Positions 51,534 to 58,359 of a stretch of DNA of 64,000 nucleotides are shown in pieces; positions within the stretch are counted from its first letter, which is position 1, and every line of letters begins with the position of its first letter. Origin of the DNA: Gelidibacter algens. GTDB lineage: Bacteria; Bacteroidota; Bacteroidia; Flavobacteriales; Flavobacteriaceae. Made by a program: the position numbers and the translations under genes. Where the stretch lies: assembly GCF_001678675.1 (NCBI RefSeq), contig NZ_LZRN01000017.1:1-64000 (forward strand), in the 5' to 3' direction. The notes under the pieces were generated by a model. The model searched no databases. It saw only the letters and a program-made list of their open reading frames with translations, and had not been told where the DNA came from.

Positions 51534-51561
51534 ACATCCGTGCAATCCGTGCAATCCGTGT
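51534..51561. repeat. Tandem CAATCCGTG repeat
   Basis: CATCCGTG-CAATCCGTG-CAATCCGTG, three near-perfect 9-mers in a row. Belongs to the class of short dispersed repeats seen elsewhere in this window (compare 659-676). Confidence 0.75.
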
Positions 51562-56185: not shown

Positions 56186-56279
56186 TTACTATTTAAGAGG
56201 ATAAAATTATCTAATAAATTACATTTAAAAACTGTCAAAGGTCATGTTCCATAAAAATGTCCACCCCAGTAATTTTAAG

Positions 56280-56304: not shown

Positions 56305-57123
56305 ATGATCATACAAAAAACAAGAGAAGAAATAGAGTTGATGCGCGAAAGCGCCCTTATTGTTTCCAAAACATTGGGTATGTTGGCCAAAGAAGTCAAA
56401 CCTGGAGTTACCACCATGCAATTGGATAAAATGGCCGAAGAATTCATTCGTGCACAAGGCGCCATACCAGGATTTTTGGGACTTTATGATTGTCCGTCTA
56501 CCTTACTTTGTAGTACCAATGAAGCCGTTGTTCACGGATTACCAACTGATGTCCCTTTAAAAGAGGGTGATGTGGTGGCCATTGACTGTGGTGCGATAAA
56601 AAACGATTATTACGGAGACCATGCCTACACCTTTGAAATAGGCGAAGTGGCTCCGGAAGTAAAAAAACTCCTTCAAATTACCAAGGAATCTCTGTATGTG
56701 GGCATCCGAGAGTTAAAAGTGGGCAATCGTGTGGGTGATGTGGGTTACGCCATTCAGAATTATTGTGAAGCCCAAGGTTATGGTGTGGTTAGAGAATTAG
56801 TAGGACATGGCCTAGGCAAAAAAATGCACGAAGATCCTGAAATGCCAAATTATGGCAAACGCGGACGTGGCAAAAAATTCATTGAAGGGATGGTCGTGGC
56901 TATTGAGCCTATGATCAATTTAGGAACGTACAAAATTAAGCAACTCAGTGATGGTTGGACGATTGTGACTTTAGATGGAAAACCAAGCGCGCATTTTGAA
57001 CATGATGTGGCCATTATAGATGGAAAACCAGAAATTCTGTCCACTTTTGGGTATGTTTATGAGGCTTTGGGGATTGTGTCTGATGAGGAGGATGAGTTTA
57101 GGCGAGAGGCGTTGGTGCTTTAA
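56305..57123 (+). CDS. map: Type I methionine aminopeptidase
   Basis: 272 residues from ATG 56305 (MIIQKTREEIELM). Metal ligands are visible: Asp in AIDCGAIKNDYYGD (two Asp), His in GHGLGKKMHED, Glu in AIEPMI, and Glu in FEHDVAI. It removes initiator Met in the cytoplasm. Its stop at 57123 directly abuts the left end of the GxxExxY cassette, which separates it from the methyltransferase gene that often follows map in this group (inferred). Confidence 0.95.
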   Translation: MIIQKTREEIELMRESALIVSKTLGMLAKEVKPGVTTMQLDKMAEEFIRAQGAIPGFLGLYDCPSTLLCSTNEAVVHGLPTDVPLKEGDVVAIDCGAIKNDYYGDHAYTFEIGEVAPEVKKLLQITKESLYVGIRELKVGNRVGDVGYAIQNYCEAQGYGVVRELVGHGLGKKMHEDPEMPNYGKRGRGKKFIEGMVVAIEPMINLGTYKIKQLSDGWTIVTLDGKPSAHFEHDVAIIDGKPEILSTFGYVYEALGIVSDEEDEFRREALVL

Positions 57124-57584
57124 TTATTTCACAGAGATGCACAGAGTTTCACAGAGATACACTGAGGGAAATGGAAGATAAACTGACTAAAAAAATCATT
57201 GGCGCTGCTATAGAAGTTCACAGAGCTTTGGGTCCTGGGTTGTTGGAGTCTGCATATCAAAAGTGTTTGTTTTTTGAGCTTAAATCTCAAGGTCTTAAAG
57301 TAGAACAAGAAATTTCTTTGCCAATTATTTATAAAGACATCAAATTAGACCATGGCTATCGGATTGATTTATTGGTCGAAAATGACGTTGTTGTTGAAAT
57401 CAAAACTGTTGAAAAATTTACTGACGTACATTACGCTCAAATATTAACCTATTTAAAATTAGGCGATTTCCCTAAAGGATTACTAATTAATTTTCATACA
57501 AAACTTTTAACCTCAGGAATCAAACGTTTTATTAATTCATCTCTGTGAAATTCTGCGTTTTCTCCGTGCATCTCTGTGAAATAA
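57124..57584 (+). mobile_element. 461 bp inverted-repeat cassette carrying a GxxExxY gene
   Basis: The ends are a 23 bp inverted repeat with a single mismatch: 57124-57146 (TTATTTCACAGAGATGCAC then AGAG) and 57562-57584, complementary. Further CACAGAGA-type repeats line both inner sides (57147-57167 and 57539-57555). The cassette runs from one base after the map stop to one base before the methyltransferase start (TTG 57586), so it fills the whole gap. The stop codon of the GxxExxY gene lies in the right repeat. No transposase inside. Precise mechanism unknown. Confidence 0.65.
57171..57548 (+). CDS. GxxExxY protein, PDDEXK nuclease-fold family
   Basis: 125 residues. Signature Gly23-Leu-Leu-Glu26-Ser-Ala-Tyr29 in RALGPGLLESAYQ, and a PDDEXK-type core with Asp66 and Glu76-x-Lys78 in YRIDLLVENDVVVEIKTVE. 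The last residues Ser-Leu and the stop fall inside the flanking repeat. The family has no known reaction. Because it lies inside an inverted-repeat cassette it may be the mobility factor or a selfish passenger; inference. Starts at ATG 57171, two bases after the repeat. Confidence 0.85.
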   Translation: MEDKLTKKIIGAAIEVHRALGPGLLESAYQKCLFFELKSQGLKVEQEISLPIIYKDIKLDHGYRIDLLVENDVVVEIKTVEKFTDVHYAQILTYLKLGDFPKGLLINFHTKLLTSGIKRFINSSL

Positions 57585-57585
57585 C

Positions 57586-58359
57586 TTGAAAAAACTCTTC
57601 AAATTCATCCTCAACACCATCCCAAGACCTATCCTCATCAGGTTGAGCTACGTGGCACGTCCTGTTTTGGCATTCTTTTTAAAAGGAAACCAGTTTACAG
57701 ACCCTATTGACAACAAAAGTTTCAAAACCTTTTTACCATACGGGTATGGGAAGCAGCGTAACAATGTCTTATCACCTTCCACATTAAGTTTGGAACGCCA
57801 CAGATTGCTTTGGCTGTATCTCAAAAATGAAACCGATTTCTTTACGGCTTCCAAAAAAGTTTTGCATTTTGCCCCTGAACAGGCGTTTTACAAACGGTTT
57901 AGAAAGATGGCACATTTGGACTATGTAACGACCGATTTAAACTCGCCATTGGCCGATGTTAAAGCTGATATTTGCAATTTGCCGTTTAAGGACAATGAAT
58001 TTGATATCATTTTATGCAACCATGTGTTGGAACATATTCCTGACGATACCACAGCGATGCAAGAGTTATACCGCATCATGAAACCTGGAGGCTACGGTAT
58101 TTTTCAGATTCCGCAGGATGTTTCAAGGGCGGAGACGTTTGAAGATGACAGCATCACCGATCAAAAGGAACGCGCTAAGATCTTTGGTCAATATGACCAT
58201 GTACGGGTATATGGACGGGATTATTTTGACAAACTACGCGCTGTCGGATTTCAGGTAGAGGAAGTCGACTATACAATGGCATTGTCTGAAGTGGACGTAA
58301 ACCGATTTTGTCTGGCTAAAGGGGAAATTATTCCAGTAGTGCGCAAGAAAATGTCCTAA
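57586..58359 (+). CDS. Class I SAM-dependent methyltransferase
   Basis: 257 residues. Methyltransf_11-like: FAPEQAFYKRFRKM, DLNSPLADVKADICNLPFKDNEFDIILCNHVLEHIPDD and RIMKPGGYGIFQIP. Starts at TTG 57586, directly after the cassette; the original start may have been changed by its insertion. Substrate unknown. The gap to apbE is without features. Confidence 0.85.
   Translation: MKKLFKFILNTIPRPILIRLSYVARPVLAFFLKGNQFTDPIDNKSFKTFLPYGYGKQRNNVLSPSTLSLERHRLLWLYLKNETDFFTASKKVLHFAPEQAFYKRFRKMAHLDYVTTDLNSPLADVKADICNLPFKDNEFDIILCNHVLEHIPDDTTAMQELYRIMKPGGYGIFQIPQDVSRAETFEDDSITDQKERAKIFGQYDHVRVYGRDYFDKLRAVGFQVEEVDYTMALSEVDVNRFCLAKGEIIPVVRKKMS

Follow-up and report, generated by a model that had tools for sequence, protein, structure and literature searches.

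The 461-bp unit that separates map from a methyltransferase gene in Gelidibacter algens is best read as one copy of a widespread small element, in which the gene for a PD-(D/E)XK nuclease (GxxExxY) is combined with its own predicted recognition arrays and which would move only rarely; we put the probability of this reading at roughly 55%. Judged from the flanks of the loci compared, an array of up to four heptads stands on each side of the gene, and the two face each other. The heptad sequence is likewise coupled to the protein clade, within genomes, across genomes and in a fresh set of loci. This coupling of a kind of repeat to a kind of nuclease points to a little-noticed class of nuclease-and-repeat elements.

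The whole cassette (left array, GxxExxY gene and right array; + strand) occupies positions 57124–57584 of the window, by which we mean the entire 64,000-nucleotide stretch of DNA that was analysed, and its extent was compared between filled and empty junctions. Its left neighbour is a map-like gene (Peptidase_M24, PF00557; 56305–57123, + strand), whose start we took at the ATG at 56305 (the longer ORF starts at 56257). The right neighbour is a class I methyltransferase gene with a TTG start (PF08241; 57586–58359, + strand), for which an orthologue was matched in 53 of 59 genomes. The initial annotation described a unit of 461 bp with 23-bp inverted repeats differing by one mismatch, and these coordinates are right: the arms at 57124–57146 and 57562–57584 are 23 nt each and complementary at 22 of 23 positions (96%). 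However, the ends were under-described as simple terminal repeats, each arm being an array of four 7-base units (heptads) of CACAGAG-like sequence, with the two arms facing each other. The heptads have the general form C[AG]CN[AG]A[GT] and start ∼ 10 bp apart. In the left arm (57124–57166, + strand) the outer end TTATTT is followed by CACAGAG, CACAGAG, CACAGAG and CACTGAG, which start at 57130, 57140, 57150 and 57160 (spacing 10-10-10). The right arm (57541–57584, − strand) carries its four heptads on the − strand, starting at 57541, 57551 (one mismatch), 57562 and 57572 (spacing 10-11-10), and has the outer end AAATAA. Between them lies the GxxExxY gene (57171–57548, + strand; 125 aa), whose TGA stop codon (57546–57548) overlaps the first right-hand heptad, in line with the earlier proposal that the right repeat is used for the stop. 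With map ending at 57123 and the methyltransferase gene starting with its TTG at 57586, 0 and 1 base are left beside the cassette, in agreement with the earlier count of one base or none. The TTG start was correctly placed right at the junction, and an empty junction from another genus (G022), which reads ...TTTAATCC-TTGAAAAAACTC, already has it. The start codon is thus not made by the insertion, and we rejected the idea that it is a product of that event. No ORF of at least 60 aa other than GxxExxY was listed in the cassette and no separate transposase gene was found within the 461 bp, as the initial annotation had said.

The octamer CACAGAGA is found four times in the 64-kb window, always within the arms. 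Because 4 of 100 shuffles also reach four (mean 1.18), this count alone is modest evidence; the 23-nt inverted pair and its recurrence throughout the family carry the weight. At 51536–51560 (− strand), in the gap between two convergent ORFs, three heptads of the CACGGAT type form a solo array with no GxxExxY gene.

The profile scores of the protein, 154.5 bits for TIGR04256 (cut-off 35) and 148.4 bits for PF13366 (PDDEXK_3, cut-off 22; its only match), are above the curated cut-offs and place it in the GxxExxY/PDDEXK_3 family, to which the sole gene of the unit had been assigned before. E26, D66, E76 and K78, which from our knowledge of the PD-(D/E)XK superfamily we take to be the candidate catalytic residues, are conserved in 287, 290, 290 and 291 of 291 loci respectively. 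All four are present in the window protein, whose candidate active site is thus intact. A structure model had a mean pLDDT of 93.7. The nearest folds returned by Foldseek were 4ic1 SSO0001 (probability 0.99), presumably a Cas4, the alkaline exonuclease LHK-Exo and lambda exonuclease. These folds, together with a weak match to a Cas4b profile (PADLOC, E 1.4e-4), constitute the likeness to the Cas4/RecB/lambda-exonuclease group, whereas no Foldseek match had an E-value of 0.001 or better and the best TM-scores were 0.44–0.53. A sequence search for a solved structure of the window protein found none. In one report, a cas4 neighbour was called GxxExxY by the pipeline used (PMC8934634).

To follow the repeats through the family, 208 GxxExxY loci with 200-bp flanks were assembled from a genus set (31; Gelidibacter and two neighbours), a named GTDB set (71) and an even draw from the Bacteroidota (106). 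The GTDB loci are the usable ones among the best 80 of 576 matches to the window's clade; the Bacteroidota draw consists of 80 regions from among the score-sorted matches listed, with multi-copy genomes favoured. A fresh set comprised 60 regions from the order, selected in the same way from the score-sorted matches listed and again favouring multi-copy genomes, plus further loci of the order and less two loci whose genomes were already represented in the first set. The 532 control windows were cut from the 208 loci themselves and consist largely of coding sequence. Inverted repeats were scored by local alignment of the upstream flank with the reverse-complemented downstream flank. The median score was 18 for the 208 loci compared with 10 for the control windows, and 142 of the loci lay above the 99th percentile of the controls (15), with 15/31 in the genus set, 50/71 in the GTDB set and 77/106 in the Bacteroidota draw. 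Among the fresh loci, 63 of 83 exceeded the same score. Inward-facing heptads numbered 4.54 per locus and outward-facing ones 1.75, against 0.74 and 0.70 in the controls; at least three inward heptads were present in 158 of the 208 loci but in only 5.3% of the control windows. An earlier pass over 132 of the 208 loci had placed 89 above the control threshold of that pass. When the upstream flank of one locus was paired with the downstream flank of another, the 99th percentile was 24, which 25 of the 132 own pairs exceeded. The flanks of different loci resemble each other, and this counts against our preferred reading.

Outside the Bacteroidota (assigned by titles), 24 named loci were found, of which 19 were usable; 13 scored above 15 and all 19 had at least three facing heptads. 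Chloroflexota, Planctomycetota, Pseudomonadota, Acidobacteria and one archaeal MAG (Methanothrix) are represented among them. When all runs of facing heptads are considered, none exceeded four units. Of the 55 four-unit runs, 27 had the spacing 10-11-10 and 10 had 9-11-9, and the first gap equalled the last in at least 50. Units 1 and 3 are 20–22 bp apart in 51 of these runs and units 2 and 4 in 52, a separation that corresponds to two turns of DNA. The outer ends of the arms are T-rich, often TTTAACC or TTTCAC. Facing repeats that fall outside the heptad pattern (ACCATATAAG-like or CAGGATTT-like) accompany GxxExxY in eight loci (L328, L336, L339, L345, L277, L233, L235 and L239).

The window's genome contains five GxxExxY genes and each of the other sites has another type of repeat (types assigned by eye). 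The C1 site has a CGCAGAG-type repeat in a 590-bp tandem pair (L002/L004), the C27 site a CCCGCAGAT-type repeat with three more gene-less paired copies adjoining, and the C9 site a AACGCTGAT-type repeat and a GxxExxY gene with one stop. GxxExxY is present in 9/9 Gelidibacter genomes, the other eight showing a similar variety of repeats. At L070, L073 and L074 both arms lie upstream of the gene and not around it.

Coupling between protein and repeat was tested on loci with at least three facing heptads of the searched form, which leaves out 50 of the 208 loci and 37 of the 83 fresh ones. Over the remaining 158 loci the distance between proteins correlated with the distance between heptads (Mantel r 0.563; largest value of 2000 permutations 0.148). 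The within-genome correlation, with shuffling among paralogues, was 0.577 (62 pairs, 13 genomes), a value reached by none of 5000 permutations. For 70 of 76 genes, the heptads of the nearest protein from a foreign genus were closer than those of paralogues in the same genome; indeed, paralogues sharing a genome differ more in their heptads (2.04) than random loci do (1.81). Prediction from the nearest protein was correct in the fresh loci for 30 of 39 bases at heptad position 2 (baseline 20), 28 of 40 at position 5 (12) and 43 of 45 at position 7 (24). These results agree with the initial view that gene and repeats belong together. The coupling could reflect co-inheritance of the gene with its flanks rather than recognition. 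However, the tree shows ∼ 24 switches at heptad position 2, ∼ 25 at position 5 and three at position 7; those at positions 2 and 5, with the within-genome test, disfavour pure hitch-hiking.

A ranking of protein columns by co-change with the heptad placed residue 121 at the top for position 2, several helix 1 residues including residue 6 for position 5, and residues 17 and 89 for position 7. On the tree, residue 6 and position 5 changed the same way in a mean of 5.7 of 9 independent pairs (opposite 0.5; median p 0.07), and residue 121 and position 2 in 4.6 of 8 (opposite 0.1; median p 0.06), compared with 1.2 of 7 (opposite 0.3) for comparison column 28. The rules for residues 6 and 121 were fixed ahead of the fresh loci (83, of which 46 had at least three heptads). 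In these, T6 was accompanied at position 5 by G in five cases and A in one, and S, A or G at residue 6 by G in eight and A in 23 (p 0.014, ignoring relatedness). At position 2, V121 went with 17 G and 6 A, and I121 with 3 G and 15 A (p 0.0004, again ignoring relatedness). Five ambiguous loci were dropped from each test, and four had another residue at 6. By purity in the fresh set, column 6 was outside the ten best columns for position 5 and column 121 was fifth for position 2. We regard the residue–heptad code as a hypothesis, since relatedness is ignored, the purity of other columns equals or exceeds that of these two, and the C-terminal tail of the protein partly overlaps arm DNA.

The arms might owe their likeness to pairing in RNA rather than to a DNA-binding protein. 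In an element of the type of the 23S rRNA intervening sequences, they would pair in the transcript, the ORF would lie in the loop and RNase III would process the hairpin. The placement of the gene would suit such an element, for GxxExxY runs in the same direction as both neighbours in 210 of 259 cases. With the upstream neighbour alone it is co-directional in 252 of 275, and the first heptad follows the upstream stop codon by a median of 12 bases (89 loci). An element of this type would also suit a second Gelidibacter site, where GxxExxY (G007, G002) is replaced by a four-helix-bundle gene (TIGR02436) in G005 and G006; G003 has a lone arm there, and nothing is evident in G000 and G004. The pattern of mismatches argues otherwise. 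Pairing kept in the sense transcript would give more G-U than A-C mismatches; we counted 276 G-U and 287 A-C in 142 loci, and 366 and 426 in the 205 loci above threshold (p 0.036, in the opposite direction). There is no G-U excess, and pairing of the arms in sense RNA is disfavoured. Within a locus the two arms agree at 0.907 of heptad columns and 0.678 of spacer columns, a difference that arises partly by construction, since three letters are set by the heptad pattern and a local alignment prefers matching positions. Left–right agreement at the four heptad positions free to vary is 0.76, compared with 0.51 for left and right units of random loci. In 13 orthologous cassettes from the map junction, left and right arms of the same cassette scored 19.3 and those of different species 19.4. 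Neither copying nor compensation thus keeps the two arms similar, and concerted evolution between them was not found. Selection for arm pairing in RNA, by which an intervening sequence or RNA hairpin element would be recognized, was thus not detected, and we consider such an element improbable. The arms appear to be kept as putative binding sites rather than as pairing partners.

The initial annotation saw in the cassette a minimal selfish or self-mobilizing unit. The association of gene and repeats and the existence of empty sites and gene-less paired arms agree with this, but a recent insertion at the site is not supported. In seven of nine Gelidibacter genomes the junction holds the window's clade (frame-broken in G007). 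The junction of G004 is occupied by another GxxExxY (37.6% identity), which has arms of the CACGAATT type and is preceded by a duplication of part of the map end; that of G002 contains broken GxxExxY pieces between CACGAATT-type arms. The duplication ahead of the G004 copy (L042) is in tandem and comprises the left arm as well as the end of map. Among 21 loci from other genera at this junction, the window's query found two GxxExxY genes (G026, 38.6%; G034, 75%), and in eight map and the methyltransferase gene lie within ∼ 25 bases of each other (by eye). Such empty junctions, and the exact fit of the cassette between two genes, are what a self-mobilizing unit newly inserted here would produce. 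No target duplication was apparent against the empty junctions, which come from other genera, and no transposition event was seen among the loci compared. Of the 291 loci, 22 are at the map junction, 19 belonging to the window's clade (66–100% identity) and three to the other clade. The window's clade is found there in at least five genera, including Gelidibacter, Flavobacterium, Aequorivita and the genera of G277 and G034. Its positional orthologues in these genera are 66–89% identical and synonymous sites are saturated; a recent insertion is thereby rejected in large part, and we hold it to be very improbable. Unrelated GxxExxY clades have taken the same map–methyltransferase gap. Re-use of one junction in this manner would be compatible with a homing endonuclease gene.

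For six Gelidibacter copies, dN/dS was 0.02–0.08 in 12 of 15 pairs and 0.19 in the closest pair (two not computable), and dS was above 1 in nine pairs; the arrays persist nonetheless. By these ratios the window's copy is under purifying selection, and with the same clade at the junction in at least five genera it can be considered a long-term resident. The preserved junction and low dN/dS at high dS would also fit a settled host function, in which GxxExxY or another protein would bind the arrays as operators or structural sites for autoregulation or DNA processing, with movement incidental or long over. Among pairs of homologues from separate genera, 35 of 46 have both neighbours in common at a protein distance below 0.2, as would be expected of a host gene, but at 0.3–0.4 the home is shared in only 73 of 2137 pairs, from which it follows that relocation does occur. 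The corresponding values are 56/305 at 0.2–0.3, 11/8242 at 0.4–0.5, 0/11,264 at 0.5–0.6 and 38/17,175 at 0.6–0.7; this course suggests long residence, slow relocation and occasional re-use of a gap by another clade. Rarity on plasmids (8 matches in 72,556 records) and the lack of a match in 50,697 phage records, at the sensitivity of this query, also speak for a host function. The distribution is patchy, however, GxxExxY being present in 59 of 118 evenly drawn Bacteroidota genomes and in 48 of 148 genomes of the order; the arms stand on both sides of the gene, facing, and not only at the promoter; and the copies in G007 and G002 are broken. A settled host function is possible but, to our minds, rather doubtful.

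In 513 kb around the GTDB loci we counted 114 arrays of at least three heptads (reversed control, 7). GxxExxY was within 250 bp of 78 of these and farther from 36, and five of 13 close facing pairs of arrays were more than 2 kb from a GxxExxY gene. In the window's genome the seed motif TTTCACAGAGAT, allowing one mismatch, occurred 13 times forward and 16 times in reverse and was not enriched relative to its reversed-pattern control (11 and 18). On inspection, six more array sites were seen beside one-mismatch seed hits (reversed control in the same loci, none). Because these arrays are gene-less, the proposal that the gene and its ends invariably move as one does not hold throughout. One Flavobacterium junction, inspected by eye in 30 loci, held the GxxExxY cassette in 10, a gene-less pair of the CACGAAG type in nine and of the CGCTGAT type in five, two further gene-less types once each, nothing in two and another upstream gene in two. 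The gene-less arms matched those of a GxxExxY cassette resident in the same genome in 6 of 12 genomes with such arms at this junction, by a threshold set after the scores had been seen. Gene-less arms might be copies made in trans from a resident cassette, although a match in no more than half of these genomes weighs against our preferred reading.

These gene-less forms raise the question of whether the paired arms are MITE-like or terminator-like repeats that another factor moves and in which GxxExxY is a frequent passenger. Four gene-less types at a single junction, the 36 distant arrays and the six genomes that have no resident copy with matching arms would be expected of such repeats. The 78 arrays close to the gene would not, nor would an arm type that follows the protein clade, also within genomes, and we regard a passenger role as unlikely. 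As in MITEs, the arms are short facing repeats without a transposase and have gene-less forms; the full form differs in carrying a conserved nuclease gene and in that no target duplication was apparent against the other-genus empty junctions.

In the mechanism that we favour, that of a rarely moving nuclease cassette, the GxxExxY protein itself would read the heptads, probably via helix 1 and the C-terminal strand, and would cut DNA at or near the arms. Host repair of the cuts would very rarely duplicate or relocate the cassette, and cutting and repair may leave gene-less paired arms and solo arms behind. Between moves, a copy would be passed on for a long time at one place, immediately behind a stop codon in the gap between two genes of the same direction. 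Such a mode of working would be like that of REP-RAYT systems, with a different enzyme and a different repeat.

Published work on REP-RAYT systems describes a nuclease-type gene flanked by inverted cognate repeats, a repeat class that follows the protein, several protein–repeat pairs per genome, syntenic orthogroups with long vertical inheritance, absence from plasmids and gene-less repeat copies (PMC3686654, PMC8049555). GxxExxY is likewise flanked by cognate inverted repeats, and it resembles these systems in its clade-coupled flanking repeats, its several protein–repeat pairs per genome, its rarity on plasmids, its shared neighbours and its gene-less arms. It differs in that RAYT is an HUH tyrosine transposase whereas GxxExxY is a PD-(D/E)XK enzyme; the window protein matches PF13366 only, and no HUH Y1 tyrosine transposase gene is present. 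Further, a REP is a short palindrome whereas each GxxExxY array has four non-palindromic heptads. Copies are also few, with six further sites by one seed motif compared with the 69–235 REPINs per E. coli genome given in this work (PMC3686654, PMC8049555), and the one unit type counted genome-wide is not a high-copy dispersed repeat. Since the enzyme belongs to another superfamily and the repeat is not high-copy by the one motif tested, the cassette is not a REP-RAYT member. TAACTGA heptamers are reported for Beggiatoaceae (PMC4679880). We found no description of an association between GxxExxY and repeats in the open-access literature searched.

We tentatively suggest, with rather less than even confidence, that GxxExxY and CRCNRAK-type heptad arrays form a distinct transposase-less class. 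Its Cas4-like clades would read their own four-heptad arms by a readable protein–DNA code, with many orthogonal pairs per genome, and the class would give rise to a large proportion of the intergenic repeats that are short and facing in Bacteroidota and several other phyla. If correct, this would provide a function and a substrate for a widely distributed orphan nuclease family and an origin for a class of short facing repeats. Should the nuclease read the arrays, it would be a second, unrelated solution to the problem solved by REP-RAYT, and a natural collection of small, programmable-looking, sequence-specific nucleases. As the protein–repeat pairs are many, orthogonal and predictable from sequence, specificity, cleavage and spread are directly testable.

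A few further sites are worth recording. In L012 (∼ 1441–1540; G000 C2, near 203,257) two window-type arrays stand back to back, the right-arm type followed by the left-arm type with TTATAGCTATTA between them, an arrangement that resembles abutted element ends. At the odhB–E1 junction, Gelidibacter genomes without GxxExxY there (L282–L284, L286, L287) often have a short palindrome of the GACCTGACAGG or GACCTCACAGG type. The four-helix-bundle (S23/IVP-like, TIGR02436) genes mentioned above (L294:2184–2558 and L296:2271–2630, − strand) are like the GxxExxY cassettes of two other Gelidibacter in their intergenic site and, in one of the two cases, in having strong inverted repeats; they differ in the unrelated protein and in the repeat. 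L296 has strong facing GTTGAGG/GTTTATG arrays (score 31), and L294 scores 12, which is not strong.
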